Both the position numbers and the translations under genes were made by a program. From positions 1-38,401 of IMG/VR virus record IMGVR_UViG_3300048586_000080: a DNA stretch of 38,401 bases; one strand, given 5' to 3'. The notes below the pieces were generated by a model, which saw nothing but the letters and a program-made list of their open reading frames with translations, was not told the origin of the DNA and searched no databases. This document shows, piece by piece, positions 4,576-38,401 of this stretch (position 1 is the stretch's first letter; each line of letters begins with the position of its first letter). This DNA comes from a virus.

Positions 4576-4709
4576 CGGCCGGGCCTCGACAGGTCAACCC
4601 CAGCGGCGAGCAACAGGAACCCGGCGACAGCCATCCCGACTGTCGGGGCCACGATCGCTCCGGCTGCCACGAGAAGGGCGGCACCGACGAGAATCATTGC
4701 GAGTGCCAT
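4572..4709 (-). CDS. 45-residue membrane protein between terminase and portal
   Basis: A very short gene that begins MALAMILVGAALLVAAG and ends DLSRPGR. Nearly the whole chain is hydrophobic and could form two helices (residues about 2-20 and 22-39) joined by a Pro-Thr turn. The ATG is preceded by GGGGAGG and the stop overlaps the portal GTG as GTGA, so translation coupling supports it as real. Function is unknown. It is not in the lysis block, so a holin role is only one possibility. Confidence 0.7.
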   Translation of the reverse strand: MALAMILVGAALLVAAGAIVAPTVGMAVAGFLLLAAGVDLSRPGR

Positions 4710-4722
4710 TGGGCCTCCCCTC

Positions 4723-6318
4723 TCAGATCACGATGAAGTCGGACTCGACCGTCGGGTCGGTGGACTCGGTCAATTCCCATGTAGCCATCGACCCGGCTCG
4801 GATCAGGTCCATCGGTCCCCGTGACCGACCCTTGGACAAGTACCGGCCGCGCTCGTTTTCGCGCCATGCCGCCGCTGCGCTGTGGGCGTTGAGAACTGGA
4901 TCGTCAGGGACCTCAAGTTCGCCGGCCACGACCAGGTTGAACAGGTGTCCGTCGGCTGGCACCAAGCGCTCGGGCGACTGCGTGAACTCAACGAGCAGTA
5001 GACCCTCGTCCTCGAGTTGGCGGGCCTGCGTCTCGAAGAACCTTGGGTCGTAGGTGACTGCCTTCACGTTGAACCGCCGGGCCAGCGTTCCCCGGATCGT
5101 GTCGAATACGTCGAGGAAGTCGATCTTGCCGTGGCTGTCCGCCGACCAGTGGTGCGGCTCCCAGGTCACTCCGCCGCCGTCGTTGAGCGCTGCGACGATG
5201 ATGCCGACCGAGTCGTGGCGCAGCGCCATGTCGACACCGATCACCACCTCGGCGCCATCAGGGATGACTGCTTCGCCGATGCTGTCGGGCCAAGCGGACG
5301 GGTGCTCGATCAGCCAGTTGTCGTCGGCCATGTCGACGAACCGGTTCCCGAAGTACCGGAGGAACTCATGCTTGGGCATCTTGCCGGTCTCGAACTCCCT
5401 GGCCCGGACCTCGACTGACCAGGTGACGTCGGCGGCTCGCATCGACCGAAGCGCTGCGCGGAGCTCGGCCGGGTTGTGTAGGTCAACGTCTGACGGGAAC
5501 TCCCGCCAGTCGAACAGGAACCGCGACTCGGGATCGTCCTGAGCGAGTAGTCCTCGGCTGTACAGCCGCCAGAGAAGCGGGTCGGAAGGGGCTGGTGGGA
5601 TCTGCCCTCGGCCGGCGCCTGCGGTCGACAGGGTGATGGACCGGCCTGGGTTCATTCGCTTGGTGAGCGCTGCGGTGATGACGACGTGGACTCGGGCCTT
5701 GTTGCCGGTCCATTCGTGGGCTTCGTCTGCGGCGAACAGCGTCGTCTTGCCGCCCTCGTTGGTGCCGGCGACGGCGGCGATGCGTTCGATCTTCCCGGGG
5801 CGCCCGTCGACGAACGAGATTTCGGTGTCCCACACGTTGAACAGGCCATGCATCGGCGCCTGCGGGACCGTGCCGCCCTGGCCTCCTGCCATGATCTGAC
5901 ACTGCCGGAACAGTTCGCCGGCCTGGTCGTACGACGCCGCGGCGACGTGGATGATGGGCGTGGGTCGGCGGAACGGCGCCGGACCGGCGAACTCGAGCAT
6001 CGCGATCGCCCCGACGAACTCGGTCTTCGACGCACCTCGCTCAGCGCCGACCAGCGCTTCCTGGTACCACCAATCGTCCTGCTTCGCAGGGTCGAGTTCG
6101 TACCAGCGCCACAGGAACTCTTTGTGCCAGTCAAGTAGCCGGTAGGGCTCTGCGAACAGGTCGCCCTCACCGTGGATCAGGCGTTCCTCCATCCACCGGA
6201 TGGCGGTGGCACCCTTGGACTCGCGCAGCTCAACTCGCGGCGCGTCCTGTGGTCTCGATCGTGGTGACGTTCCGTCGGGGGTCTTCTTCTTCGCCGTCGG
6301 GGTCGTCCTCGAAGTCAC
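4723..6318 (-). CDS. Terminase large subunit
   Basis: A 531-residue DNA-packaging motor with ATPase and nuclease domains. A Walker A-like segment GAERGASKTE lies at 91-100 and Walker B with the catalytic acid at TLFAADEAHEW (193-203, D198 E199). The RNase H-like nuclease has EVVIGVDMALRHDS (357-370, acid D363) and VTYDPRFFETQ (421-431, D424). The start is a GTG at 6318 preceded by GGAGG. It overlaps the small-subunit gene by 89 bases, which is long, but the conserved region begins soon after (ATAIRWMEERLIHGEG), so a much later start is unlikely. A Lys-rich stretch occupies residues 10-12. Confidence 0.93.
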   Translation of the reverse strand: MTSRTTPTAKKKTPDGTSPRSRPQDAPRVELRESKGATAIRWMEERLIHGEGDLFAEPYRLLDWHKEFLWRWYELDPAKQDDWWYQEALVGAERGASKTEFVGAIAMLEFAGPAPFRRPTPIIHVAAASYDQAGELFRQCQIMAGGQGGTVPQAPMHGLFNVWDTEISFVDGRPGKIERIAAVAGTNEGGKTTLFAADEAHEWTGNKARVHVVITAALTKRMNPGRSITLSTAGAGRGQIPPAPSDPLLWRLYSRGLLAQDDPESRFLFDWREFPSDVDLHNPAELRAALRSMRAADVTWSVEVRAREFETGKMPKHEFLRYFGNRFVDMADDNWLIEHPSAWPDSIGEAVIPDGAEVVIGVDMALRHDSVGIIVAALNDGGGVTWEPHHWSADSHGKIDFLDVFDTIRGTLARRFNVKAVTYDPRFFETQARQLEDEGLLLVEFTQSPERLVPADGHLFNLVVAGELEVPDDPVLNAHSAAAAWRENERGRYLSKGRSRGPMDLIRAGSMATWELTESTDPTVESDFIVI

Positions 6319-10935: not shown

Positions 10936-12744
10936 TCATGGCGGCTGCTCCTCGACGGTGAGGAACATGCCGACGCGTTCGCGTGCGAGCTCGGCGTTGC
11001 GTTCGTCGAGGTCGATCAGGATGCAGTCGCGTCCGAGTCCGGTGGCGACCTGGGCGGTTGTGCCTGATCCGCCGAACGGGTCGAGCACGATGCCGTTGCG
11101 CCACGAGTCGTGGCCGCAGTCGGTCCACCCGACGGTGTCGACGGTGCGCGTCGCGGTGTGCTGGCTACCTGTCGCGCCGAGGCCGAGCCGTTCAGCACTG
11201 CGCCCTCGACCTTGCCGGTCTCGTTCCCGGGGCCCGCCGACGGACACCTCGCCAGCGACCTCCACGATCCGTCGTCGCGGTTCACCGCAGACCGTGCAGA
11301 CCTGCATCGGACACATCGACTTGATCGGACGCTCGAGCAGGGCGGGCGGGAACACGGCGTAGTGCGAGCCTCGATATCCGACGGTAGGTATGTCCCAATA
11401 GTCCGGTGGGTTGTCGGCGTAGTGCGTGGTATCCTCGGCCTTTACGACGATCTTCGCCGAGTAGGAGCACGTACATGCCGAGGAAAACGCCGGTTCAGTG
11501 CGAGTGTCAGCACTGCCACCAGCAGTTCGGAGCAAAGGACTATCGGTCGAACCGTCCGCCGAAGTTCTGCTCCCGGTCGTGTCGAGACTCGGCTCGACGA
11601 ACTCGGGTGACCCTGACGTGCCGCCAGTGCCAGCAGTCGTTTGATCGGAAGGCGTACCAGCAGGACTGGTCGACTGAGCGAGGTCCGTTCTGTTCGATCC
11701 GTTGCCATTCAGACTGGCAGAGTCGCCACATGCGGGGTCCAGCGTCTCCGTCGTGGAAGCCGTCGGGTCGGGACTCCACAGTGTGGGAGGAGTCACGCCA
11801 TGTGGTGCTGGATCGAGACGGGCATCGATGTGTTCGGTGCGGCTCAGATCGTCTCCTGCATGTCCACCATCGGGAGCATTGGAACCCCGACGATCCGGCG
11901 ACCCATGAACCGGACAATCTGGAGACGTTGTGCGCAGGATGCCATCGGCGCCAGCATCCAATGGAACGCGGATCTGATGGGCGGTTCCTCCCGCGGGAAC
12001 GACCAACCCATCAGGCGTGACGTACGGGGCGGTGGGGATCTCCCAGTAGTCGAGCGGCGGGGCCCCGGCAGGGTTTTGCGGCGCATTGGTGGAGCCGCGA
12101 ACGCCACTGGCCTTGTTCTTCTCGCCGGTGAGCCCCGCTTCGTCAACGCGCGGGTTGGCGTGCCGCACCGCGTCGAGGTCGAAGTACCGTTTCGGGTCCT
12201 TCGTGGCGATCGTCAGATACGAAGTGGCGGGCCGGAACTTGTCGCCGAGCGCACCGACGGGCGGGTTCGGTCGGCACCATGCGACGACGTTGCGGACACG
12301 CCACATTCCGGCGGGTGACGGTTCGCCGGTGAGTAGGTTGCGGCCGTAGGCGAGGGAGAGTGAGTAGAGCCACGGGATGCCGCACAGCGACTTGGCGAGC
12401 GGCCATCCCGTGCCTTTCGTGGCGTTCACGGGGCGAAGCGATCCGATGTGGTTGGCATCGGGGCCGCCACCCGATCCCGAGTACGTGTCGCCGAGCTCGA
12501 CACAGATCGACCCGTGCGGAGCGAGTAGACGTTCCCACTCGGCAGTCAGTGCGAGCAGCGTGTCGATGAACTCCGCGGGTGACGGCTCCGAGCCGATCTC
12601 CTTGCCCTTGTCGGGGTGATCGGCGGGCAGGTACGAGCGCAGCGCCAGGAACGGCGGTGAGGTCATCACCATGTCCACCGATGCGTCGGGCAGTGTCGCC
12701 ATGACGTCGAACACGTCACCGATCAGGTAGCGGGATGCACTCAC
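10936..12744 (-). CDS. DNA methyltransferase (beta class, probably N4-cytosine), interrupted by an antisense HNH gene
   Basis: The open frame encodes 602 residues from a GTG that overlaps the previous stop as GTGA. Motif IV is TSPPF (28-32) and the AdoMet-binding motif I is DPFGGSGTT (555-563), giving the beta-class order. Ser-Pro-Pro-Phe/Tyr favours N4-cytosine. After DYWEIPTAPY (232-241) comes about 200 residues of Ser/Thr/Pro/Gly/Asp-rich sequence with no enzyme features, which is the antisense reading of an HNH gene on the plus strand. At 448-457 a second version, DYWDIPTVGY, resumes normal sequence (YRGSHYAVFPPALLERPI). The frame is intact by length (648 bases), so a protein with a disordered insert could be made; activity is uncertain. 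Confidence 0.8.
   Translation of the reverse strand: MSASRYLIGDVFDVMATLPDASVDMVMTSPPFLALRSYLPADHPDKGKEIGSEPSPAEFIDTLLALTAEWERLLAPHGSICVELGDTYSGSGGGPDANHIGSLRPVNATKGTGWPLAKSLCGIPWLYSLSLAYGRNLLTGEPSPAGMWRVRNVVAWCRPNPPVGALGDKFRPATSYLTIATKDPKRYFDLDAVRHANPRVDEAGLTGEKNKASGVRGSTNAPQNPAGAPPLDYWEIPTAPYVTPDGLVVPAGGTAHQIRVPLDAGADGILRTTSPDCPVHGSPDRRGSNAPDGGHAGDDLSRTEHIDARLDPAPHGVTPPTLWSPDPTASTTETLDPACGDSASLNGNGSNRTDLAQSTSPAGTPSDQTTAGTGGTSGSPEFVEPSLDTTGSRTSADGSTDSPLLRTAGGSADTRTEPAFSSACTCSYSAKIVVKAEDTTHYADNPPDYWDIPTVGYRGSHYAVFPPALLERPIKSMCPMQVCTVCGEPRRRIVEVAGEVSVGGPRERDRQGRGRSAERLGLGATGSQHTATRTVDTVGWTDCGHDSWRNGIVLDPFGGSGTTAQVATGLGRDCILIDLDERNAELARERVGMFLTVEEQPP
11374..11403 (-). repeat. Second, diverged copy of the methyltransferase DYWxIPT block
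   Basis: Encodes DYWDIPTVGY and continues into normal methyltransferase sequence. It is homologous to 12022-12051 but differs at several bases, including synonymous sites, so it is not a recent tandem duplication. Confidence 0.75.
11475..12020 (+). CDS. HNH endonuclease with tandem zinc knuckles, antisense within the methyltransferase gene
   Basis: A 181-residue protein with its own ribosome site (TAGGAG at 11462-11467) and ATG. Two repeated zinc units come first: C11-x2-C14 with C32-x3-C36, and C49-x2-C52 with C73-x3-C77. An HNH nuclease domain follows: C119-x2-C122, HVHH (129-132), N148 in PDNLETL, and C153-x2-C156-H157. All metal and catalytic positions are present, so the enzyme looks active. 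The stop codon ends one base short of the upstream methyltransferase block. Third positions look less GC-biased than in the neighbours, consistent with transfer. This is a likely homing endonuclease. Confidence 0.85.
   Translation: MPRKTPVQCECQHCHQQFGAKDYRSNRPPKFCSRSCRDSARRTRVTLTCRQCQQSFDRKAYQQDWSTERGPFCSIRCHSDWQSRHMRGPASPSWKPSGRDSTVWEESRHVVLDRDGHRCVRCGSDRLLHVHHREHWNPDDPATHEPDNLETLCAGCHRRQHPMERGSDGRFLPRERPTHQA
12022..12051 (-). repeat. First copy of the methyltransferase DYWxIPT block
   Basis: Encodes DYWEIPTAPY, the point at which methyltransferase-like sequence stops and the HNH-bearing segment begins. Its partner at 11374-11403 lies 648 bases away, in frame. Confidence 0.75.
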
Positions 12745-22910: not shown

Positions 22911-25034
22911 TCACCGCACCAACACGATCGGAGCGGTCTGGTTCGGACCCAACCTCGTCGCCGTGTTCGCCGCACTGTTCAACGTGAACCCCGACATGTC
23001 AGCGGCCGGCGTCGCTCCCGGCTGCGCGACCACACCTGACCACAACGTCACCGACGCACCCAACCCACCGAACGGTGCGTCGACTGGCCGACCCACCCTG
23101 AACGTCACCGTTCCAGAGTTGCCCACCGGGTTGTGCATCCCGATGAAGTAGCCGTTGTCCGGCAGGCGGACCCCTGCACCGACGTTGTGACCGATGATGC
23201 CGACCGTCGTGCCGACCGTCACCGACTCGGACCACGCCAGCTCACCGGGCAGCCCGTTCGCCGCCTGTTCGTAACACACCACGTTCACGGCTTGACCAGC
23301 GGTGAGGCTCGTCGCCGTGATCTCGAACATCAGCCGGGAGAGATCAGCGGTCGTCACCCTGTCGCCGTACGCCAGATAGGCGTAACCGGCGAGGGCAGCG
23401 ACCGTCGCCGTCGTTGTGAGGTCCATCCTGGCGGCGGGTGTCCCGTAGTTCGCTTGCAACGAGTAGTCGGCGGCCGTGGCGAGCACCGCCGGCCGACGCG
23501 GTGACGCCGCCACCTTCGCAGCGTCGAGCACCACCGTGCCGGTGAGACCGTTCACCGAGTCGACAGCACCACCGCCACCGCCTGTGTAGACGGCGTCGAG
23601 GTCGATCGTCGTCGCAGCATCGGAGTCGACGGTCGTGATCGAGCCGCGCAGGTTGCGGTACAGGAACGTGTCGCAGTCCTCATCGGCGACGATCGTCGTG
23701 GACGGCGAGAAGCCATGCACACCGTCGACGGTGACGACGGCGCAGTCCTCGAACTGCATCGCTGTCGTCGCTGTTGCGAAGTAGCCGACGGCCGTGTCGC
23801 GCACCAGAACCGTGTCGACCCCGTTCACCAGCAGCGGCGCCGCCAGGGCGTACGGAACCGTCGATGTGGACGGTGACGCGATGTTGCAGTTCTCGATCGT
23901 CACCAACCTGTGACGGTCCGAGTTGATGGTGTTCTCCACCCGGATCGCCGACGCGGTCGCCTCGTCGAACTGGCAGTTCTTGAACGACAGGGCGCGCGAC
24001 TGGGTGGGCGCCCACGCACCCGACACCATCTGCGGTTCACGCACCCACACCCACGCGATCGGCTGACGCTTGAACGCCTGCGCCGTCCCGCGGAAATGGG
24101 CGCCGTGAATGACGTCATGGAACCGGCAGTCCTCGACGGTCAGGCCGTTGCTCGAACTCGACAGGACCACCGGCACGTCGGCGCCGCCGTGCCACGATGC
24201 GATCTGCCCGCCGCACGCGATGAAGTTCGTGGACCGCAGCACGAGGTTTGATGCGTGAGAGCGGAGAACTGCGCCGTTGATGGAACCCGAGCTCCCACCA
24301 GCGACGAGGCCGATGAACGTGCAGCCGTGCAGCGTCGCGGTGCGGCACTCCGTCAGGTACACGGCGTTGCGGCAGTCGGGCAGCGTCGACTGTGAGCCGA
24401 AGAACACGACGTTCTCGATCATCAACGTGTCGAGCCCGCTGATCTGGAGGCACACGTTGTTGACGCCGCCGCGGCAGAAAAACGCCGAGCGTGACCCGTA
24501 GCCGCGGATCGTCACCGAGTTTGCTGCGCCGGAGAAGTTGACGACTGCTGTAGCGGTGTCGAGGAGGAAGAGGCCGTCCACGATCAGTTCGCCGCCGCCC
24601 TGGGCGGCGAGCGCGTCGAGTGCGTCCTTGAGTCCGGCGGACGCCGAGTCGGTGCCGCCCTCCGGTGCGTAGTCAGACAGGAACAACGGTGCCGACGTGC
24701 GGGGTACCGAGTTGTCCGCGACCTCTGCGGCCGCTGCGATTCCAGCGGCAGCCTGTGCGAGAGCGAAGTTGATACCGAACCCGTACTGCAACAGCGCCGT
24801 CTCGATCTCCTCGGCGGTGAACGTCGCCTCGGGGAACACCACCTGCAATGCCGTCTGGATTGACGCTGCGTCGACCGGGATGTCAGCGGCGTCTAGCTCG
24901 ACGACACCTGTCTCACCGTTCACCGAAGCTACAGCGGATGGTTCGCTGTACACGGTGCGCCACTCGACACCCGCCGTCGTCGACGACTCCCACACTTCCT
25001 CAACCAGCGGCGAAGACTCCCACGTGTCAGTCAC
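22911..25034 (-). CDS. Tail fibre or tailspike with beta-helix
   Basis: A 707-residue protein, start GTG overlapping the previous stop (GTGA) with GGAGG upstream. The head has SVNGETGVVELDAADIP (37-53), a trimeric fibre motif that recurs as SVNGLTGTVVLDAAKV near 493. Between them is a right-handed beta-helix: short repeated strands with stacked Asn, such as VNFSGAANSVTIRGYGSRSA, SGLDTLMIENVVFFG, ASNLVLRSTNFIAC, NGLTVEDCRFHDVIHGAHF. The C-terminal 200 residues are a beta-rich domain (LMFEITATSLTAGQAVNVVC). It likely binds, and perhaps cleaves, a host surface glycan. Confidence 0.8.
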   Translation of the reverse strand: MTDTWESSPLVEEVWESSTTAGVEWRTVYSEPSAVASVNGETGVVELDAADIPVDAASIQTALQVVFPEATFTAEEIETALLQYGFGINFALAQAAAGIAAAAEVADNSVPRTSAPLFLSDYAPEGGTDSASAGLKDALDALAAQGGGELIVDGLFLLDTATAVVNFSGAANSVTIRGYGSRSAFFCRGGVNNVCLQISGLDTLMIENVVFFGSQSTLPDCRNAVYLTECRTATLHGCTFIGLVAGGSSGSINGAVLRSHASNLVLRSTNFIACGGQIASWHGGADVPVVLSSSSNGLTVEDCRFHDVIHGAHFRGTAQAFKRQPIAWVWVREPQMVSGAWAPTQSRALSFKNCQFDEATASAIRVENTINSDRHRLVTIENCNIASPSTSTVPYALAAPLLVNGVDTVLVRDTAVGYFATATTAMQFEDCAVVTVDGVHGFSPSTTIVADEDCDTFLYRNLRGSITTVDSDAATTIDLDAVYTGGGGGAVDSVNGLTGTVVLDAAKVAASPRRPAVLATAADYSLQANYGTPAARMDLTTTATVAALAGYAYLAYGDRVTTADLSRLMFEITATSLTAGQAVNVVCYEQAANGLPGELAWSESVTVGTTVGIIGHNVGAGVRLPDNGYFIGMHNPVGNSGTVTFRVGRPVDAPFGGLGASVTLWSGVVAQPGATPAADMSGFTLNSAANTATRLGPNQTAPIVLVR

Positions 25035-25432
25035 TCCGGTGCCTCCACTGCAACCTGGGGCAACGTCGTCCAACGACGATGCAGGAACTCTTCGAGCTTG
25101 CCGTCGATCTCACACTGTGCAGCGAGGACCTGCTGGTCTCCTGCGGGGACACGCTCACTGTTGGCGCACTGCCACGCGAACACGATCGGGTCGCCGTCGA
25201 AGTCGGTGCCGGTGGTGGTGATGAGCGCGTGCTTCGACGCGTTGTAGCCCTTGCCGTTCGCCGTCGACGCGAGCAGCTTCGACGACTCGTCATCCCCGGC
25301 GCGCAGCTGCACCACCAACGTCGCCTCGTCATAGACGCGGGTACCGGTGGTGCGCGTCCATGAGCGCGCCCAGTAGTCACCGCGACGACCTGTCCGTTCG
25401 GCCTTGTTCGCAGCCTCAGCCGACAGAGCCAT
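25031..25432 (-). CDS. Hypothetical protein between holin and tail fibre
   Basis: A 133-residue protein, ATG overlapping the holin stop (TGATG). It has DYWARSWTRTTGTRVYDEAT, LVVQLRAGDDESSKLLAST, DGDPIVFAWQCANSERVPAG then a helical end LEEFLHRRW. Neither a membrane helix nor an enzyme motif is visible. A fibre assembly chaperone or minor tail protein would fit the position, without sequence proof. Confidence 0.55.
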   Translation of the reverse strand: MALSAEAANKAERTGRRGDYWARSWTRTTGTRVYDEATLVVQLRAGDDESSKLLASTANGKGYNASKHALITTTGTDFDGDPIVFAWQCANSERVPAGDQQVLAAQCEIDGKLEEFLHRRWTTLPQVAVEAPE

Positions 25433-28259: not shown

Positions 28260-30350
28260 CTAGAACGCTGCGGGGTGAGCGGGGCTGTCGGTCGGTGACG
28301 TGCCGGCGAGGAACCAGTCGCGCTCGGCGCGGGTGCAGTCGATCCACAGGGTGACGGTCCACTGGACGTGCGACCAGTCGTTGCGGATACCGATGACGTG
28401 CCCGGACACGTCGACCGGTGCCCCGATCGGGTTGCCGTCACAGTCCGTCGGGGCGGCTTTCACCAGGCGGACGAGCCATCCGATGTCCACCACACGTCCG
28501 AACGCGACAGCGAGTTCGGTGTCGGCGGTGAACTGGATCTGCTGGATACGCAGCGGGGCGGTCGACTGCGAGTAGATGAGCCAGTCGGCGATGGCTTGGG
28601 ACTGGGCGTCCGACGGATGCAACAGGCCGGTGAGCGACACAGCATTCCTGCGGCCGGTCGCGGCGATCGAATCGAGGTTGGTGGCGGTCTGGGTGCGGCC
28701 CGTCTCAGAGGTGACGTCGGCGACGTTCACCAGGTCGAACGGACTGTCCGCCAAGATCGTGTCCTCGCCGATCTCGATCGCGTCGCCGTCGTCCAGCACG
28801 GCGGGCGCATCAGAGAACGTCATCTGTACATCGGTCGACACGGTGTCGGTCCACGCCCAGCCACGCTGAGCGAACCGGAGCTGGCCGCGCCGGTCGACCC
28901 ACACCCGCCCCTGCTCGGTGTCCTCGAGTGTCTGCCACAGTTCGATCGGGCCGCTCTGCGTGTAGTGGTTCTGCGTCACCACACCGGACACGTCCAACAT
29001 GCCGAGATGCGGATCGAGTCCGAACGCCGTCAACAGCCGGGCGGTGCGCTGATCCAACCTGTCGCCCGCCCACGCCGCCGTCGCAGCAGAGTGCAGCTCG
29101 TTTGCCATGCCGGGCAGGTCAGCAGTGTCCGGGTTCCGCCACAGGACGATCGGGTCGATGACACCCATGTACGGCCAGGCGTCAGCGAACGGACCCGAGT
29201 GACCGAAGTAGAGGGGTCCGCGGTTGACGGTGTACGACCCGCCGGTGGTGTCGGTGTCGACGACGAGCTCGCGGCCATCGACGAACACCCTGATGTCACC
29301 CGTTCCGAGCGGCGCGTAGACCAGGACGCTGTGGGTGCGGCCGTTGAACAGGTTCAACGCACCGATCTCCGTCTCACCCGACCGGAAGGTGGTGGAGCTG
29401 ACCGAGTAGACGGCGATGTGTGTCGAGTGGACGACGACTTCGAACGCCGTGTTCAACGGGTCGGTCGGGTTGGACTGGGAGATGAGCGTGACTGCGGGTG
29501 CGGGGGTGACTTGGGTGACGCTCGCCCTCGTCTCCGCTTGAGCGAGCCGGATGCGGGAGAACGCGAGGACCGCCGAGTTGTCGACGTCCGGCAGTCCGAT
29601 GAACCCGGCCGGGTTGTCGACCGTCCCCCAACCGTCAGGGTCACCCAGGCCCCACGACTCCTCGCCGCCCGCAGCGGTCGAATCGAACGACGTGAGCGCG
29701 CCGCTGTGCCGACCCGTGATACCGGTGACACGGTCGGTCCACGCCTGCGCGTTCGGCACCCACCAGTGATCCGGCTCGAGCAGGCCGATCGCAGCGTCGA
29801 GCGCCGACATCGGAGCGTCGCCCTGGGCGGCGACACCGAACACGTCGTGCCCCTCCACCTCCACCACTGCGACCTGTTCGGTGAACTGCTGCGGAAACCC
29901 CGATGACACGAACCCGCGCCACCGCGTCGACGCACCCGACACGCCCTCCACACCAACCCTCACCCTGACCGGGGTGCCGATGTTCAACAGTCCGTAGTAC
30001 GGGCCGGCGATGTTGCGCGGATCGAACCGGCCGTGCAGGTTCTCCAACGCCAACGACACCGAACCGGGTGCGATACCGGAGCCGGGTTCGGTGCGGCCCT
30101 GCATCGTCGACACCGACACCGACGTGTCATCCGTCGCCACATGTTCGGTGACGTCCACCCAACCGGGTTCGGGTACGTCGTCGCTGGGCCCGTAGCCGAA
30201 CGCCATCTCCACCACCGGTGCAGTCGTTTCGCTGACCTCGGTGGTGAGTCCGCCGTAGCTGTCGAAGTACTCGTCGGTGTACTCGTCGAGCGGGGCTGTT
30301 GGGGCGGGCGAGTACTCGTCCAGGTACTCGTCGGTGTAGACGTCGCTCAC
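28260..30350 (-). CDS. Minor tail (hub-like) protein with LamG-like domain
   Basis: A 696-residue protein, GTG overlapping the previous stop (GTGA). The N-terminus repeats D-E-Y (VSDVYTDEYLDEYS; LDEYTDEYFDSY). Residues about 40-180 resemble a tail hub domain (GRTEPGSGIAPGSVSLALEN; GRFDPRNIAGPYYG; VRVRVGVEGV). A LamG/concanavalin-like domain follows (HIAVYSVSSTTFRSGE; FNGRTHSVLVYAPLGTGDIR; RGPLYFGHSG), then a second hub-like region (RLLTAFGLDPHLGMLDVSGV). Such proteins form the distal tail and bind sugars. No catalytic motif. Confidence 0.75.
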   Translation of the reverse strand: MSDVYTDEYLDEYSPAPTAPLDEYTDEYFDSYGGLTTEVSETTAPVVEMAFGYGPSDDVPEPGWVDVTEHVATDDTSVSVSTMQGRTEPGSGIAPGSVSLALENLHGRFDPRNIAGPYYGLLNIGTPVRVRVGVEGVSGASTRWRGFVSSGFPQQFTEQVAVVEVEGHDVFGVAAQGDAPMSALDAAIGLLEPDHWWVPNAQAWTDRVTGITGRHSGALTSFDSTAAGGEESWGLGDPDGWGTVDNPAGFIGLPDVDNSAVLAFSRIRLAQAETRASVTQVTPAPAVTLISQSNPTDPLNTAFEVVVHSTHIAVYSVSSTTFRSGETEIGALNLFNGRTHSVLVYAPLGTGDIRVFVDGRELVVDTDTTGGSYTVNRGPLYFGHSGPFADAWPYMGVIDPIVLWRNPDTADLPGMANELHSAATAAWAGDRLDQRTARLLTAFGLDPHLGMLDVSGVVTQNHYTQSGPIELWQTLEDTEQGRVWVDRRGQLRFAQRGWAWTDTVSTDVQMTFSDAPAVLDDGDAIEIGEDTILADSPFDLVNVADVTSETGRTQTATNLDSIAATGRRNAVSLTGLLHPSDAQSQAIADWLIYSQSTAPLRIQQIQFTADTELAVAFGRVVDIGWLVRLVKAAPTDCDGNPIGAPVDVSGHVIGIRNDWSHVQWTVTLWIDCTRAERDWFLAGTSPTDSPAHPAAF

Positions 30351-32221
30351 GACGGGATCGGCCTTGCGACGAACGCGCTGTAGGCGGCGATGGCTTCGGG
30401 TGTCAGGAGGCGGGGGCCGGGGTCGCGCTGCCCGTAGTCGTAGTAGGTGACGTACTCGGGCGGATGCCCCGAGCGGGGGCTGATGATGTGGTTCATCACC
30501 GTCGTGATCCAGTTCGCGCGCTGCTGGAGCGAGTACCAGTACTGGACGTTCTTGCCGCCGGTCTGAATGTCGTCGTAGGCGTCCGCAGAGTCGGGGTCGC
30601 CGCGCTGGGCGCCGATCTCGCAGATCGTCCACGGCTTGCCGACGCTCTTGGCGTACTCGGACCAGGACTCGATGGTGAACCAGCAGTCAGGCGACGGGCT
30701 GAGTCCACCGTTCGCGGTGAGGATGTTCGTCGGCAGCGTCATGTACTGGTACTGGCGGAGCACGTAGTTGCTGACCTGCCACAGCTTGGCGATGGCGATG
30801 CTGCCGTCGCCGCGCTGGCCGACCGGGTAGATGTCGATGCCGAGGACGTCGTAGTTCCACAGTCCTTCGCTGCCACGAATCCAGTCGCGGGCGTTGGTGG
30901 TCCAGCTGTTCGAATTGACATGCCAGTCGCAGACGACCGGCTGACACCACACGTCCCAGCCCTCGGCGCGCAGCTGGACACACGCGTTGTAGATCGCCGT
31001 GTGCCCGTTTCGCCAGTTCGTCTTCCACTGCGCGAGAGTCAACCCGGACGGCGTGTTGCCCTCCGGTTCGTGCCAGGCGCCGATGTACAGCTTGACGTTC
31101 TTCGGGACGTTCGCCCTGATCCACGCCTCGGCTTCGGTGCCCCACGCGTTCGTGTTGGTCTGAGCGGGCTTCCAGGTGACGCTCGCGTAGCGGGTCGAGC
31201 TGTTGACGATCCACGCTCCACCGCTTCCGAGCGATGACCCGAAGAACGTGCGGGCCGCTTTGAGCGGGGTGGTGAACTTGGCGCTCTTCGTGTTCATGTC
31301 GGACTGCGACGTGACAGTCGTTCCGAACACGGTGTACGCCGCACCCGTGGGTGGTGGTGGCGGCGGGGTGGTGGTGCCGGTGATGGTAGCGATGGGCGAC
31401 GCGGTGTAGATCCCGTCTGCTCCGTCGGCGAAGATGCCGGCGGCGATCGCCGCGGTCTCAGCCGACGAGACCCACACCTTCAGTCCGGCGTTGCGGAGGT
31501 TCGCGGCGATCGTGCTGTTCGTGTTGCTGATCGACAGCACGACCCCGTACATGCCGTCGGCGGCGAGCGTGGACGCGGACGGGTTGCCCGAGTTGCCGGG
31601 GTAGGTGGTGGGCCGGTGCATGACGTTGAGGCCCCCGGCCTGCATCGTCTGACAGTCGGTGTAGCTCGTCGACACGGCGAGAATGGCGTTCTCTGCGCCC
31701 TCGGCGGCGACCCAGTCGACGAGCTCGGACGCTGCGGTGGTCGTCATGGGTTGGGCGATGATGAGCTTCTCGCCGCCGTACGCTTCCATCACCTGATCCC
31801 ACGTCGCGCCGGGGCGGGCGGGCTGCCCGGCGATCGGTGACGGGATGGTGACGGTCGCCCATTCGGCCTGGTCCATCGTGACGACCGTTTCGGCGCCACC
31901 CGAGTCCGTCTGCGTGTCCGGCTCGGACACGACCAATGTGCCGTCGGAGAGGGTGCGGAGCTTCACCGCACCAGCGACACGGAAGTTCTGGAGGTCGGTG
32001 GAACCGATCGTGTTCGCGGCGGCGTGGAGGGTGCCCGACGCGAACTCTGCGGACCCGAAGTTGTCTGCCGCCCACATCGGGTACGTGAGCGCGCCAACCA
32101 CGTCGGGGCCGGATGACCACGGCCACCGACGCACCACGCCTTCGATGTGGTCAGACCCGCCGGTGGACATGACGGTCGTGCCGTCCACCCACCCGGATTC
32201 GGTCCACAAGCGGAGCGGCAT
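30347..32221 (-). CDS. Tail protein: degenerate GDPD-like barrel plus glycoside hydrolase barrel
   Basis: A 624-residue protein, ATG overlapping the previous stop (TGATG). Residues about 40-275 follow a glycerophosphodiester phosphodiesterase-like order (LRTLSDGTLVVSEPDTQTD; WDQVMEAYGGEKLIIAQP; NAGLKVWVSSAETAAIAAGI then FADGADGIYTA), but the usual H-R-G and H-D catalytic pairs are missing. A poly-Pro linker (TPPPPPPTG) leads to a clan-A-like glycoside hydrolase barrel: YIGAWHEPEGN with E387 or E385 as acid/base candidates, DVLGIDIYPV, and WTICEIGAQRG with E535 as nucleophile candidate. Probably degrades host surface polysaccharide. Confidence 0.75.
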   Translation of the reverse strand: MPLRLWTESGWVDGTTVMSTGGSDHIEGVVRRWPWSSGPDVVGALTYPMWAADNFGSAEFASGTLHAAANTIGSTDLQNFRVAGAVKLRTLSDGTLVVSEPDTQTDSGGAETVVTMDQAEWATVTIPSPIAGQPARPGATWDQVMEAYGGEKLIIAQPMTTTAASELVDWVAAEGAENAILAVSTSYTDCQTMQAGGLNVMHRPTTYPGNSGNPSASTLAADGMYGVVLSISNTNSTIAANLRNAGLKVWVSSAETAAIAAGIFADGADGIYTASPIATITGTTTPPPPPPTGAAYTVFGTTVTSQSDMNTKSAKFTTPLKAARTFFGSSLGSGGAWIVNSSTRYASVTWKPAQTNTNAWGTEAEAWIRANVPKNVKLYIGAWHEPEGNTPSGLTLAQWKTNWRNGHTAIYNACVQLRAEGWDVWCQPVVCDWHVNSNSWTTNARDWIRGSEGLWNYDVLGIDIYPVGQRGDGSIAIAKLWQVSNYVLRQYQYMTLPTNILTANGGLSPSPDCWFTIESWSEYAKSVGKPWTICEIGAQRGDPDSADAYDDIQTGGKNVQYWYSLQQRANWITTVMNHIISPRSGHPPEYVTYYDYGQRDPGPRLLTPEAIAAYSAFVARPIPS

Positions 32222-33307: not shown

Positions 33308-35866
33308 TCATCGGCTCATCGCCCGCTTCAGCCGTGGCGCTTGGACGCCCTTCGCGACGCCCTCTTCGACGAGGCCGACGATCTGACGGGACAGGTCGTT
33401 CGTCATCAGCGACCCGCGGGCGTCGACGTTCACAACGACCTGCGTCGGCGACGCTGCTGTGTATCCGACGGGCAGGCTCGAGCCGCCCGCGTTGCTCATC
33501 AGCGCCGCAGTCTCGGACGCGGTCATGACCATGCCGTTGTGCTCGGGGAAGATCAGCTCCGGCCCCTTCTCACCCACCATGTACGGCACGCCAGCTGAGA
33601 TCGGACCGCCACCGGCCCGTCCAGCGATGTTGCCGATCCCGCGCAGTACGCCCTGGGCGGCGGTGCCTCCGACGACGCGTACACCGAAGAACACCTCACG
33701 CGGTCGGGCCAGGTCGTCCAGCGCCCGTGCAGCAGCGATGACGTCGCCCTGAGCGAGCGCCGCGTTGAACTTCGTCAACTTGTTCGGGGGAGTCGAGTTG
33801 ATGAGACCCTGGTAGGCGCGAATCCTGAACTCCGCAGCGGCCATCTCGCTGAGACGGATGGCTGTCGTCACCTGCTCGGGGGTGAGGTTCAGGGTTTCGA
33901 TGTAGTCCTGGGTCTGCTCGTCGTTCAGGCCGAGCTGCTTCGCCTGCTTGACGTACTGCTGACGCAGCACGTCGGCACTGAACGCCACATCTTCCGACGA
34001 CGCACCCTGCGCCAGCAGGCCCGACAGGTACGCCGCATTGGCGTCACCCGCGGATATCAGCGCGTCGATCGACTTCTGCTGCTCTTCGTTGTAGCCGCCC
34101 ATCGCCAGGGTGGTCTGGTCGATGTCCTTTGGTAGCGCCTTGATGCTGTCACCGAAGCCGCGCATGACGGTCCCGAGCTTCGACGCGTTCGACAAGGCGT
34201 CGTCGATCTGCGACGACCGTTCGATGGCGTCACCGAACGCCGTGGCTCCCTCCGCAGCACCATCAGCGGCAGAGTTCCAACGGGCCATCGCGTCGGCGTT
34301 CTCGGCAAGCGACTCGTCCACCGCATCGAACGCGTCGGCGACTCCACCCCCTGCCTCGCCGAGAGAATCCATCGCAGCCGTGGCGTCGCCAGCGGTGCCG
34401 GCCATCTCGCCCTGACTTCCAGCGACCGCGTCCGCGGCGTCGCTCGACGAGTCCAGGTACGCCTGGTACTTGTCGAGCGTGGGGAGGAACTTGTCGTAGG
34501 CGATGCGGGCCTGCGTGCCTTCCACCTTGGCGTCGCGGAAGTTGTCAATCGCGAACTGGAGTAGTTCCTTGTCGCCGGACGACTTGATGCGGTCGAGCGT
34601 GTCGCCGAGGTTGTCGATCTCGAACCGCAGCCCGTCGACTTCGACTGCCGGGTCGGCGAACATCGAACCGAAGATCGACCCGAAGTCCTTCGCCTTGTCG
34701 CCGATGCCCTCAGTGGACGCTGCGATGTCCTGTAGGCCCTTGACGGTCTTCTCGGTCTTGGCTTCGTTGAGGGCCGTCTCGAGGCCGAGAGCGTCCTCTG
34801 TGGCCGTGTTGAGTGCCTGTGCGAGCTGGTAGACGGCGAATGCTGCGCCGGCACCGCCGAGCAGTGTGGCTGCCTTGCCGACATTCGTCAGAGAGCGCGT
34901 CGTCCCGTCCGCCGACGTCGAGGTTTCGACGAGCTTGCCCTTGAGCGCGCCCATCTGATCGCCGAGACGCATGACCGTACCGACCGCGGTCGAGACGGGG
35001 CCGGCAGCGGCAGCGATCCCGGCGAACACGAGCACGACGTTCTGGCCGGTGTCGCCCAACTTGTCCCACGCATCCAAGCCGGTGGTGACGAAATCGCCGA
35101 GCTTCGACAGGACTGGGATCAGCTTCTCGCCGATCTCCTCTTGGATGTCCTCAAACTGAAGCTTCGCCTTCTCGAGCTTGCCCGCAGCGGTACCGGCGAA
35201 CGCCTCAGCCGACCCACCGAACTGGGTCTCCAGCTCCTGAAGGATGATCTTCTGAGCAGACATGACGTCGCCCATGGCGACGTACTGCTCGACCTGCGCC
35301 TCCTGCGACTCGGTCAACTGGACGCCGGCCTTGCGGAGCGCACCCATGCCCTTGATCGGGTCGTTCAGCGCCTTGCCGAGCAGGATGTTCGCCGACTGGA
35401 GATCCGTGCCCAGCTTCACCGACAGGTCCGCAGCGAGCTGTGTGGCCTGGTCGAAGACGTCGTTGCCTTCGCCGACCTCGTTCCGCACGTTCGTGAACGT
35501 CAGCAGCACGGACTGGCCCGACTTGATGAGGTCGCCGTCGATCGCCAGCTTGTCCTGCATCGACGACGCCAGATCGTCCATCTGATCGGCAGACGTCCAG
35601 GCTGTCGCGCCGGTCGACTTGAGTGACGCTTCGAGCTGGGCCTGGGACTGCTCGGCCTCCATGAACGCCTTGACGGACGAGGTGCCCATCGCGATCAGCG
35701 GCAGGGTGACGCCGACGGTGGCGGCGGCGCCGACCTTCTGCATCTTCGAGCCGATCTGATCGGCCTTCGAAGAGAACCCGGACAGCTGCTTCTCGCCGTC
35801 CCCAAGCGCCTTGCCGAGCTTCGACGCGTCCCCTGTGATCGAGATCTTCACCTCGTTCTTCGCCAC
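33308..35866 (-). CDS. Tape measure protein
   Basis: An 852-residue protein, GTG with GAGGTGA upstream. It starts KNEVKISITGDASKLGKALG and SKADQIGSKMQKVGAAATVG then VTLPLIAMG, the usual tape-measure opening with a hydrophobic segment. Long helical sequence with Ala-rich runs follows (NVVLVFAGIAAAAGPVSTAV; AATLLGGAGAAFAVYQLAQA). At about 1.5 angstrom per residue it predicts a tail of roughly 125-130 nm. It also organises DNA ejection. Confidence 0.9.
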   Translation of the reverse strand: MAKNEVKISITGDASKLGKALGDGEKQLSGFSSKADQIGSKMQKVGAAATVGVTLPLIAMGTSSVKAFMEAEQSQAQLEASLKSTGATAWTSADQMDDLASSMQDKLAIDGDLIKSGQSVLLTFTNVRNEVGEGNDVFDQATQLAADLSVKLGTDLQSANILLGKALNDPIKGMGALRKAGVQLTESQEAQVEQYVAMGDVMSAQKIILQELETQFGGSAEAFAGTAAGKLEKAKLQFEDIQEEIGEKLIPVLSKLGDFVTTGLDAWDKLGDTGQNVVLVFAGIAAAAGPVSTAVGTVMRLGDQMGALKGKLVETSTSADGTTRSLTNVGKAATLLGGAGAAFAVYQLAQALNTATEDALGLETALNEAKTEKTVKGLQDIAASTEGIGDKAKDFGSIFGSMFADPAVEVDGLRFEIDNLGDTLDRIKSSGDKELLQFAIDNFRDAKVEGTQARIAYDKFLPTLDKYQAYLDSSSDAADAVAGSQGEMAGTAGDATAAMDSLGEAGGGVADAFDAVDESLAENADAMARWNSAADGAAEGATAFGDAIERSSQIDDALSNASKLGTVMRGFGDSIKALPKDIDQTTLAMGGYNEEQQKSIDALISAGDANAAYLSGLLAQGASSEDVAFSADVLRQQYVKQAKQLGLNDEQTQDYIETLNLTPEQVTTAIRLSEMAAAEFRIRAYQGLINSTPPNKLTKFNAALAQGDVIAAARALDDLARPREVFFGVRVVGGTAAQGVLRGIGNIAGRAGGGPISAGVPYMVGEKGPELIFPEHNGMVMTASETAALMSNAGGSSLPVGYTAASPTQVVVNVDARGSLMTNDLSRQIVGLVEEGVAKGVQAPRLKRAMSR

Positions 35867-35875
35867 AGGGTCACC

Positions 35876-36378
35876 TCATTTCTTCGGCTCGTACTGCACG
35901 ACGCCACCGATGGGTGGCAGCTGGGCTAGACGGGTTTCGTACTGTGCGAGCTCGCCCGCGGGGAGCTGGTCGAGGTCGCGGCCGGTGAGGCCGAACCAGT
36001 GGGCGAACTCGGGGAGGAGCCGCCTCAGTCGGCGGCTGGGTCTTCCGGGCCGTCGTCCGCCTCGCCCTCGCTGATGATCTCGAGGGCGATCTCGGTCGCG
36101 TCGTTGATCGGGTCGGCGACCTGCTTGAACGTCACCTGCTCGCCGGCTGCGCGACGTCCGAGGAACACGAGCGCGGCGACCATGAACGGTGCGTACGAGC
36201 CGCTGGCGAACGCTGCCTGGATGTCGCGGCGGGTGAGCTTGAGCGCCTTGAACAGTTCGGCGTCGTGCTCCCACGACACGTCCTCGGGATCGTAGAAGTA
36301 CACCTCCCCATCGACGGTGATCTTGAACCCGGACGCGGGTGGGGTCGGCTTCTTCTGGCGGGCACTACGTGGGGGCAC
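35876..36378 (-). CDS. Tail assembly chaperone, frameshift-extended form (GT-like)
   Basis: The long form shares the start of the short chaperone and then passes into the -1 frame to end at 35876. The extension adds RRLRRLLPEFAHWFGLTGRD then LDQLPAGELAQYETRLAQLP and ends YEPKK, typical of the second chaperone domain. Neither a clear ribosome site nor an ATG or GTG start exists for the extension alone, which supports programmed slippage. The best slip candidate is C-CCG-GAA at about 36043-36049, which is not a canonical heptamer. Confidence 0.6.
36025..36378 (-). CDS. Tail assembly chaperone, short form (G-like)
   Basis: A 117-residue protein, GTG at 36378 with AGGAG upstream. It has ITVDGEVYFYDPEDVSWEHD, ELFKALKLTRRDIQAAFASG, FMVAALVFLGRRAAGEQVTF and an acidic C-terminus (SEGEADDGPEDPAAD). 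Position between tail tube and tape measure, plus the overlapping -1 frame extension, identify it as the G-type chaperone that coats the tape measure before tube assembly. Confidence 0.8.
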   Translation of the reverse strand: MPPRSARQKKPTPPASGFKITVDGEVYFYDPEDVSWEHDAELFKALKLTRRDIQAAFASGSYAPFMVAALVFLGRRAAGEQVTFKQVADPINDATEIALEIISEGEADDGPEDPAAD

Positions 36379-36386
36379 GGGGTCTC

Positions 36387-36830
36387 CTAGGTGATGGTGG
36401 TCTCGAGGCCGGCAGAGCGGAGCGCTTCGGCGACCTGCTGTTCGAACGTCTCGAGGATTTCGGGCATGTCGCCTCGGATCGCGTCGCCGACGATGTACGG
36501 GCCACCGCCCGACAAGATGTCCCACCGGTTCCCAACCCATTCGGGGAACTGCGGGCGCTTTCCGCCGAGGAACGCACCCAACCCGAACGGCACCCGGCCC
36601 GTGTTGCGGATCGCCAGATCAGCGGCGGTCGACGACCCTTTCGCCAACAGCACGGCCGCGGCGCGGGCCTGCTGTCGGGTGCCGCCCTTCGCCTGCGAAC
36701 GCGACGACCGCTGCACCACACGGGACACCTCGCGGTGCGCCTTCGACAGATCCTTCGTGGTGCCGGTAGCCCGGCGGAACGCGGCGCGGGCTTCGGCGAT
36801 GCCCTCGACGTGAACCGCCGGTTCCGGCAT
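36387..36830 (-). CDS. Neck/tail completion-like protein (HK97 gp10-like)
   Basis: A 147-residue protein, ATG overlapping the tail-tube stop (TGATG). It is basic and helical (VHVEGIAEARAAFRRATGTT; RQQARAAAVLLAKGSS), then has a short beta part (VGDAIRGDMPEILETFEQQV). Length and general layout resemble minor tail or tail completion proteins of the HK97 gp10 type, but here it follows the tail tube rather than preceding it, so its role is less certain. Confidence 0.55.
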   Translation of the reverse strand: MPEPAVHVEGIAEARAAFRRATGTTKDLSKAHREVSRVVQRSSRSQAKGGTRQQARAAAVLLAKGSSTAADLAIRNTGRVPFGLGAFLGGKRPQFPEWVGNRWDILSGGGPYIVGDAIRGDMPEILETFEQQVAEALRSAGLETTIT

Positions 36831-37828
36831 CAGGCCGCTGCCGTGGTCACGTACGTGATCGTGAGCGGTTCGTCCGAACCGTTGTCGCGCACCTCGCCCG
36901 ACACCGTCTGCATCGTCATCTCCTCCGACATGTCGCCGATCGACACGTCATCGAAGCGGAGCGCCGGGATCGCGATGTTCAACTCCGCGTACGTGGAGCC
37001 GGTGATCGGGATGGGCCCCTGGCAGGCGACCTCGATCGCCGCGTAGTTGTTCGCACGCGTGAGCGATGCCATCCGGTTCCACTGGGTGAGGTCGGTGAAG
37101 TCGAGTTCGCATTCGAACGTGATCTCACGCGGCCCGTTCGCGACCGGCTCGGAACGCCCCGTCCCCGGTGTCGCGCCGGTGCCGGCGATGTAGTGCCGGT
37201 CCGTCTTCAGGTTGTTGTTGCACGACAGCGTCCACGACGTGACGGGGACGGCGGTGCCGCCGATCGTCGCCGCGGCGTTGGCCCACGACAGGACTTCCAT
37301 GCCGGTCGGATAGGACGCGGTGGCGAGCGCAGTGCCGGTCGTGTGGTTCGCGAACACCATCTCCAGCTCGGCGGTCACGTTCCCCTCGACCTCGCACGAC
37401 AGCGACCACGACGCGACCTTGCCGCCACCCCACGTGAACGCCAGATCGGTTGTCTTGCACGCACCACCGATCACGTTCTCCTGGTAGGTGAACGACGTTC
37501 CGCACAGGTCGGCGAGCGTCGCGATGTGCGAATCGGCACCGACCACCGGGGCGTCGTCATCGACCGTGACGGCGCCCATCATCCGCTTCAGCCACTTCTC
37601 GAACCCGAGGTTGAACACCTCCAACGTCCGGGTGCCGCTGCCGCCCATGTGGTACGGCTGACCCTGGTTGACGAACGGCACGATCCGTCCCGCCCGCAGA
37701 CCCGTCGAGTTCGTGTACCCCTTGTCCAACACGATCGGGGCGCCGGGCAGGAACTCGTCGAACTCGTCGACCGTCACCCGTGTGCCGTACGTGGTCTCGT
37801 CCTTGGTGCCGAGCTGGTAGTCAGCCAT
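36830..37828 (-). CDS. Major tail (tube) protein
   Basis: A 332-residue protein with AGGAGGAG and ATG. Strand-rich throughout: YQLGTKDETTYGTRVTVDEF, GYTNSTGLRAGRIVPFVNQG, LEVFNLGFEKWLKRMMGAV, TTDLAFTWGGGKVASWSLSC and a long C-terminal part (FDDVSIGDMSEEMTMQTVSG). It has the look of a lambda V/HK97-type tube subunit with an extra C-terminal domain. Its position before the chaperones and tape measure is canonical. Confidence 0.85.
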   Translation of the reverse strand: MADYQLGTKDETTYGTRVTVDEFDEFLPGAPIVLDKGYTNSTGLRAGRIVPFVNQGQPYHMGGSGTRTLEVFNLGFEKWLKRMMGAVTVDDDAPVVGADSHIATLADLCGTSFTYQENVIGGACKTTDLAFTWGGGKVASWSLSCEVEGNVTAELEMVFANHTTGTALATASYPTGMEVLSWANAAATIGGTAVPVTSWTLSCNNNLKTDRHYIAGTGATPGTGRSEPVANGPREITFECELDFTDLTQWNRMASLTRANNYAAIEVACQGPIPITGSTYAELNIAIPALRFDDVSIGDMSEEMTMQTVSGEVRDNGSDEPLTITYVTTAAA

Positions 37829-38165
37829 CGGTGTTCTCCTCCTTCGGGCGCTCGGCGCCGTCGTTCACGTCGCCGGGTTCGGCGACGAGTTGCTCGAGCT
37901 GCTCGAGCAACCTCTTGCGGCCCTTGCCGGCGCGTTCCTCTTCGAGCGCCTGCCGGGCCTTGTCGATGTCGCCGCCGACCTGGGCGAGCACTTCGTCGAT
38001 CGTTCCGCCGCCCTCGGCGTACTCCCAGCAGTCCTGTTCACACAGCGACGCCGCTAGGTCGTCGGCGACCTCGGTGGGGACGCCGCGCTTGACGGGACGC
38101 CACCGCTCGGGGCCGGTCTGGATCTCTACTTCGGCGAACCTGCCGACGTACTTCACTGAGCGCAT
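37821..38165 (-). CDS. Small neck-region protein with coiled C-terminus
   Basis: A 114-residue protein, ATG overlapping the previous stop (TGATG). MRSVKYVGRFAEVEIQTGPE with WRPVKRGVPTEVADDLAASL resembles a small beta module found in many phage head-tail proteins (V-K-R-G then V-x-x-x-L-A). The C-terminal half is helical and charged (TIDEVLAQVGGDIDKARQAL, KGRKRLLEQLEQL). Function unknown. Confidence 0.65.
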   Translation of the reverse strand: MRSVKYVGRFAEVEIQTGPERWRPVKRGVPTEVADDLAASLCEQDCWEYAEGGGTIDEVLAQVGGDIDKARQALEEERAGKGRKRLLEQLEQLVAEPGDVNDGAERPKEENTDG

Positions 38166-38401
38166 CAGGTCTCTCCTGTGATCCTCTGGTCGACAGCGAC
38201 TTCGAGTCGCATCGCCGACGCTGTTCCGTCTTCGATCCAGAACGGGCTGGGGCCGTCTGCGAGCACCACCTGCGCCGAGGTGACGCACAGTCCGGGGTCG
38301 GTCTCCGAGTCGGCGTCGACGAGCTGGGGATGATCGGCGCACACCATGCGGACGAACTCGGCGTACGACTCAACGAGCTCATCGGCCTTCTCGAACTCGT
38401 A
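38165..38401 (-). CDS. Tail terminator-like protein, C-terminal part (enters from right edge)
   Basis: The last 78 codons of a gene whose start lies outside the window. In frame from the edge it reads YEFEKADELVESYAEFVRMV then DSETDPGLCVTSAQVV and ends MRLEVAVDQRITGET. The helix followed by strands, and the position before the tail-tube genes, match the C-terminal half of a tail terminator. It is probably the continuation of the fragment at 1-236. Joining base 1 directly to base 38401 is out of frame, so 3n+1 bases would be missing. Confidence 0.6.
   Translation of the reverse strand, partial: YEFEKADELVESYAEFVRMVCADHPQLVDADSETDPGLCVTSAQVVLADGPSPFWIEDGTASAMRLEVAVDQRITGET

Follow-up and report, generated by a model that had tools for sequence, protein, structure and literature searches.

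A putative GH26-like polysaccharide depolymerase joined to an apparently decommissioned GDPD-like module in a phage tail module

We analysed a stretch of viral DNA of 38,401 bases (IMG/VR record IMGVR_UViG_3300048586_000080, hereafter the window) and focused on a gene in its tail module that encodes a protein of 624 amino acids (aa). The protein joins two modules through a proline-rich hinge: an N-terminal module that resembles glycerophosphodiester phosphodiesterases (GDPDs) and lacks their catalytic residues, and a C-terminal glycoside hydrolase (GH) barrel that resembles family GH26. With slightly better than even confidence, we read the protein as a tail-associated GH26-like polysaccharide depolymerase with a decommissioned GDPD module, encoded in a two-gene cassette. 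The gene itself is real. Its ATG overlaps the stop codon of the upstream gene (TGATG) and its stop codon overlaps the start of the next tail gene (GTGA), which resembles a translationally coupled operon. A first-pass annotation had described one tail-region gene here, with a polyproline hinge and the motifs HEPE and CEIG, and all of these were found in the open frame (HEPE is H384-E387, CEIG is C534-G537, and the hinge core TTTPPPPPP covers residues 283-291).

The C-terminal domain is well supported as a glycoside hydrolase barrel, and its predicted type is GH26-like, of clan GH-A. Consensus sequences of actinobacterial HEPED-motif proteins, aligned with this domain, served only as bait. A scan of genome contigs with the bait alignment returned 50 real loci (L014-L063, the 'HEPED' family), of which 49 carry actinobacterial titles and one is titled Aquabacterium. 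Seventeen of the loci made up alignment A2, while alignment A3 has 21 rows, including the window protein. When the C-terminal domain was compared with A2 using hhalign, we observed a similarity that ran nearly end to end and took in the invariant motif residues (score 93.2, probability 98, 229 columns). The controls on this profile stayed far lower: the best of 100 shuffles of the domain scored 28.6, its reversed sequence 15.7 and the N-terminal half of the same protein 14.4. Identity of the domain to the 20 aligned bacterial relatives was 21-29%.

The connection to GH26 was made through this bacterial family. The A2 profile matched 27 PDB sequences at E<=1, and all were named GH26 or mannanase except for one computational design and one 'YdhT protein'. 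Pfam GH26 was matched at E<=0.01 by 4/17 A2 members, and the family aligned with nine canonical GH26 domains (probability 96, score 70.9), with HEPE paired to HE-V-N, D-x-Y to D-x-Y and E-x-G to E-I-G.

We further modelled the domain with AlphaFold2, using A3 as the input. The model had a predicted TM-score (pTM) of 0.80, a mean predicted local distance difference test score (pLDDT) of 72.6 and eight strands (model residues 7-12, 31-36, 54-59, 86-91, 132-135/138-140, 169-173, 240-246 and 299-303). In the model, HEPE (93-96) comes after strand 4 and E535 (244) lies within strand 7; this alignment-dependent prediction has the form expected of clan GH-A, an eight-stranded barrel with glutamates at the ends of strands 4 and 7. 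The best Foldseek match was a family 26 glycoside hydrolase (2bv9, E 1.5e-8), to which VIA-align superposed 253 residues with a Z of 18.2 and a root-mean-square deviation of 3.4. The profile score, the model and the GH26 structures at the top of the matches all bear out the glycoside hydrolase barrel that the first-pass annotation had claimed.

The active-site landmarks were examined next to those of GH26. Via the bacterial family, H384-E385, D463-Y465 and E535-G537 align with the GH26 landmarks, and H384-E385, Y465 and E535 are invariant in 21/21 aligned rows, as is E387, two residues past E385. GH26 enzymes have a His directly before the acid/base glutamate, whereas contrasting members of the clan have an Asn. 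By analogy with GH26, we predict a retaining clan GH-A enzyme in which E385 acts as acid/base and E535 as nucleophile. Of the two catalytic glutamates proposed earlier, E535 was retained; the one in HEPE, given as E387, is most likely E385 by the GH26 alignment. The C-terminal glycosidase is probably active, and the GH26-like site points to a beta-linked glycan as the target. The barrel would cleave such a glycan of the host surface at adsorption.

For the N-terminal domain, the largest profile contained 42 GDPDs (31 cellular and 11 phage). The alignment of residues 87-278 to it is colinear and spans 186 columns (score 45.2, probability 87). On the same profile the best of 60 shuffles scored 21.7, the reversed domain 15.6 and the C-terminal barrel of the same protein 11.5. 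The clearest GDPD-like stretch was that of the last two strands (AGLKVWVSS...GADGIYTASP). Residues 1-86, corresponding to the first strand and helix, showed no significant alignment to the GDPD profile. An earlier GDPD alignment, with rows in wrong frames, had scored 26.6 (best of 100 shuffles 19.3) and was replaced.

Residue states were read from an alignment of 17 phage and 30 cellular GDPDs, several rows of which are near-identical to one another. We observed a substitution at 7/7 key positions: where GDPDs have the H and R of HRG, the E and D of E-x-D, the H of HD and the E and K of E-x-K, the window protein has D,N,Q,K,E,Q,M, in this order. Among the GDPDs, 47/47 retain the Arg, the Lys and the first of the two His and of the two Glu, and 46/47 retain the second His. 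The first strand is of uncertain register, but of the only three His in residues 1-290, none falls at a catalytic His position. According to PMC10194240, GDPD activity requires two His and three metal ligands. Since these positions are substituted, the N-terminal domain should be inactive as a GDPD, and the absence of the H-R-G and H-D pairs noticed in the first-pass annotation holds. We picture the barrel as a GDPD descendant in which the chemistry that depends on metal and phosphate would have been lost. It is unlikely to bind phosphodiesters in the canonical way, since the substitutions fall on the very residues by which GDPDs hold metal and phosphate. For this reason the phosphate-containing polymer named earlier as the target finds no support here, with the GH26-like cutter suggesting a beta-linked glycan instead.

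In the same alignment, the metal-ligand Asp of E-x-D was Ser in 11/11 GDPDs from six named actinobacteriophages (L094, L097, L100-L103) and five ZL12-like viral records (IMG/VR loci L107-L111), some of these rows being near-identical. The Asp was kept in 6/6 other phage GDPDs and in 30/30 cellular GDPDs. These Ser-bearing actinobacteriophage GDPDs may have altered or lost their metal use.

The layout of the bacterial relatives bears on what the N-terminal module might do. A recognised carbohydrate-binding module (CBM) was found upstream of the same GH domain in five of the ten full-length relatives scanned (four CBM96, one CBM4_9), and a Pro/Ser/Thr-rich stretch precedes the GH domain in some relatives (such as L014, L022, L025 and L027) and not in others (such as L049 and L055). 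PMC9971899 describes CBM96 as founded on alginate binding. The phage protein shows the same order of module, linker and cutter, with the GDPD-like barrel in the position of the CBM. The CBMs of the relatives favour a binder-plus-cutter arrangement by analogy, with a plain spacer possible, and we favour the N-terminal module as a targeting module paired with the cutter. It would now be a non-catalytic module for glycan binding or spacing. Thus, the binder-plus-cutter idea of the first-pass annotation was kept and its phosphate target was not. Two members of the HEPED family deserve separate mention. The Aquabacterium locus (L057:3143-5023) encodes a GH26-like protein of this family in a proteobacterial record among otherwise actinobacterial loci, and it represents a transfer or a mixed assembly. 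The frame at L061:404-1051 contains an internal stop codon and is a pseudogene or carries a sequencing error.

Several results weigh against a GH26-like depolymerase with a GDPD-derived partner. The C-terminal domain had no direct family match in Pfam, PHROGs, NCBIfam or PDB sequences, and PF02156 (Pfam GH26) did not match the window protein itself. Compared alone with canonical GH26, the domain scored 19.9, at the level of its shuffles (best of 60, 20.6). The GH26 link is therefore a two-step one, which is why we speak of a GH26-like domain and do not assign it to GH26 itself. The C-terminal model was built from the relatives' alignment and so is not independent of it, and GH1 chains scored within 1 Z of GH26, with GH5 about 1 lower; the fold therefore indicates clan GH-A rather than GH26. 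Alternatively, the domain may be a clan GH-A member of a different family, either GH5 or one not yet described, and act on a polymer outside the GH26 range. The best viral predicted-structure matches, which include GH5 phage proteins, are in keeping with this. We nevertheless consider it rather unlikely, since a His and not an Asn stands before the acid/base residue, and GH26 was the sole enzyme family named among the profile matches to solved sequences. A still more sceptical reading is that neither barrel is a working enzyme and that the protein serves only in receptor binding: the neighbouring domain is dead by sequence and the activity of the C-terminal one is a prediction. We regard this as very unlikely, the least probable of the alternatives, given that H384-E385, Y465 and E535 have been kept.

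On the N-terminal side, the same caution applies. This domain had no match in Pfam (including PF03009) or PHROGs. The cellular-only GDPD profile (31 rows) gave a weaker 35.0 (best of 200 shuffles 22.6), the 11-phage profile gave 31.2 over just 38 columns (best shuffle 20.6), and a profile of six actinophage GDPDs gave 19.4, under its best of 60 shuffles (24.4). The idea that the domain is closest to Streptomyces-phage GDPDs was dropped, as these two phage profiles gave a 38-column match and none. The AlphaFold2 model, from an alignment with only two foreign rows, was poor (pLDDT 43.8, pTM 0.45), with ten-residue blocks 161 to 270 at pLDDT 55-76. Its top structural matches were the central spikes of phage 812/K and GDPDs; the spike match is partly circular, since the input rows are near-identical to these spikes. 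Structure prediction of both domains, which had been suggested as a check, thus delivered a barrel for the C-terminal domain and a poor model for the N-terminal one, and the GDPD-layout barrel claimed earlier is borne out in part, by the profile match over residues 87-278. The poor model, the unaligned residues 1-86 and the six-sequence profile would all fit an N-terminal region that is not GDPD-derived and matches as a generic barrel half. This we find quite improbable, though less so than a protein with two dead barrels, because the match to the 42-GDPD profile is colinear and the protein's own other barrel stays far below it, and the N-terminal domain likewise scores low on the profile of the other barrel (A2). 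The N-terminal barrel might otherwise bind no glycan and have a purely structural part, as a spacer or stalk from which the glycosidase projects. The loss of all seven catalytic and metal positions, leaving no sign of a kept ligand site, and a relation to GDPDs that remains at the level of the fold speak for a spacer; the recognised CBM at the same place in half of the relatives scanned speaks against it, and we hold it to be doubtful. Two further points count against our preferred reading, namely that a CBM, a Pro-rich linker and the cutter occur together in just 2/10 relatives scanned (L025, L027) and that no homologue of the whole 624-aa protein was found in any collection searched. Our preferred reading remains a GH26-like depolymerase carrying a decommissioned GDPD module. 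A bolder version of it, which we offer tentatively and with low confidence, is that the phage adopted a bacterial GH26-like enzyme of the 'binding module, linker, cutter' type, that the stripped GDPD barrel is a lectin-like targeting module in the CBM slot, and that this is the first GH26-like enzyme in a phage tail module within the searches made.

We also compared the surroundings of the gene with related records. By gene order the gene is encoded in the tail module, as expected of a tail-associated depolymerase, and the 'tail tip' location given earlier is plausible from gene order only. A tail-fibre-like gene accompanies it, and the pair is flanked by the tape measure gene and a hub-like gene (Table 1). 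Three viral records that carry the neighbouring tail protein (phrog_290) were used for comparison (L002, L003 and L004; identity of this protein to the window 64% in L002 and 44% in L003 and L004). In 3/3 of them the hub homologue directly follows the tape measure gene, with no gene between. The gene following the tape measure in L002 is 47% identical to the window hub-like protein and aligned nearly throughout; the hub match in L003 and L004 is weak, spanning only ~55 residues at 34-36%. The whole 624-aa protein was found in 0/8 relative records searched, several of them fragments. The simplest reading of the gene order is a two-gene insertion in the window phage lineage, in which the 624-aa gene and its fibre neighbour would have joined as a cassette; the alternative is a loss of the two genes in the relatives rather than a gain here. 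The GC content of the cassette (64-70%) is similar to that of its neighbours, and thus composition gives no sign of recent transfer. The hub protein had matches in 2/396 actinobacterial genomes (27% and 29% identity), and the surroundings of these two matches, which are short loci, showed no match to other tail genes. Residues 1-45 of the 624-aa protein are possibly a tail-attachment piece; residues 1-50 had no match at E<=10 in phage records.

Table 1. Features of the 624-aa protein and its gene neighbourhood in the window
Feature	Position	Strand	Basis
Whole gene, bimodular tail-module protein, 624 aa	30347..32221	-	Single open frame, ATG start
Residues 1-45, N-terminal lead-in	32087..32221	-	Role inferred
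Residues 87-278, GDPD-like module without catalytic residues	31388..31963	-	hhalign against 42 GDPDs
Residues 281-293, TGTTTPPPPPPTG hinge	31343..31381	-	Sequence
Residues 294-624, GH26-like (clan GH-A) barrel	30350..31342	-	hhalign, AlphaFold2, structural matches
H384-E385, predicted acid/base pair after strand 4	31067..31072	-	Aligned with GH26 HE via bacterial family
Y465, conserved Tyr of D-x-Y, strand 6	30827..30829	-	Invariant in 21/21 rows; GH26 alignment
E535, predicted nucleophile, strand 7	30617..30619	-	Invariant in 21/21 rows; aligned with GH26 E-x-G Glu
Companion tail-fibre-like gene, 354 aa	32221..33285	-	PHROG tail fibre match, E 7e-5
Tape measure protein, upstream insertion boundary	33308..35866	-	PHROG tape measure, E 1e-29
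Hub-like tail protein, downstream insertion boundary	28260..30350	-	phrog_5313; 'hub' inferred

Searches for other homologues were largely negative. The whole protein and its halves had no usable match in Pfam, PHROGs, NCBIfam, PDB sequences, IMG/VR, phages or genome contigs, where the IMG/VR and contig scans begin from exact short patterns and reach close relatives only. Plasmids searched with the C-terminal domain gave one match, which was not usable (E 0.4). A tblastn search of 50,697 phage records with one member of the GH family (L058) found no relative at E<=1, the 17 HEPED members had no credible match in PHROGs (best E 0.015), and an IMG/VR scan with the GH alignment A1, being pattern-based and so not exhaustive, found no relatives. 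Further IMG/VR scans returned none with four actinobacterial GDPDs and seven with a mixed GDPD set.

Some candidates were rejected. Twelve weak phage matches of the C-terminal domain (E 7-8) came from ten Arthrobacter and two Aeromonas phages; one of them, Arthrobacter Daob, matched locally around the WHEPE region only, with the motif itself absent. A scan of IMG/VR for the WHEPEGN motif gave two stretches, and neither frame resembled the domain by eye. The whole protein matched 4/396 actinobacterial genomes at E<=0.01, all weakly and locally; two of these matches had internal stop codons and the longest (L113) was antisense to an apparently real gene.

A portal, a large terminase, an integrase, a tape measure protein and an M15 endolysin are all encoded in the window, a set of genes that makes a near-complete temperate siphophage probable. 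An actinobacterial host is suggested by the portal, which shares 42-45% identity with its counterparts in Streptomyces phages like phiC31 and phiBT1. The portal and terminase genes are found at one end (3346-6318) and tail genes at the other (33308-38342, -), on a single strand; a circular or circularly permuted genome opened within the head-tail region would be split in this way. Downstream of the endolysin, a 720-aa protein (22911-25073, -) matches a right-handed beta-helix family (PF13229, E 1.4e-6) and, weakly, a tail-protein PHROG; it is possibly a second tail spike. A 602-aa DNA methyltransferase-like frame (10936-12744, -) has a best PHROG match in which ~215 profile positions are spread across ~580 residues, so it may hold a large insertion in the middle.

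If our reading is correct, a GH26-like cutter joins the known repertoire of phage tail enzymes, and a hydrolase fold has been reused as a non-catalytic tail module. Residues E385 and E535, and the comparison of the N-terminal module with a CBM, make the binder-plus-cutter idea directly testable, and glycosidases that open actinobacterial surfaces would be useful tools. Neither GDPDs in phage tails nor phage hydrolases of clan GH-A are new in themselves. In the titles and abstract openings of the papers that our searches returned on GH26 and phages, inactive GDPDs, GDPDs and phage tails, and the phage 812/K spikes, the present architecture is not described.

Among known systems, the bacterial HEPED proteins, which are likely secreted, share the GH domain with HEPE, D-x-Y and E-x-G, in some cases the Pro/Ser/Thr-rich linker and in half of those scanned an upstream binding module. 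They differ in being bacterial and not phage proteins, and in having CBM96 or CBM4_9 in place of the GDPD-like module. The GH26 beta-mannanases, lichenases and xylanases (PF02156; CtLic26, Man26A) share the predicted fold and the three active-site landmarks, but the window protein gives no direct profile match to them. GDPD-type modules in or near the tail module are known from the central spike of phage 812, Lactobacillus phage Ld25A and the Streptomyces phages ZL12 and Yara; the Ld17 baseplate glycerophosphodiesterase, cited in PMC6116005 and PMC10194240, is a further one. The HRG His is present in 17/17 phage GDPDs checked and the second His in 16/17, whereas the window protein has lost every key position and has a glycosidase attached. 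Finally, the GH5-type phage hydrolases found as BFVD matches likewise place a clan GH-A barrel in phages, but the window protein differs from them in its GH26-like signature and in its partner domain.

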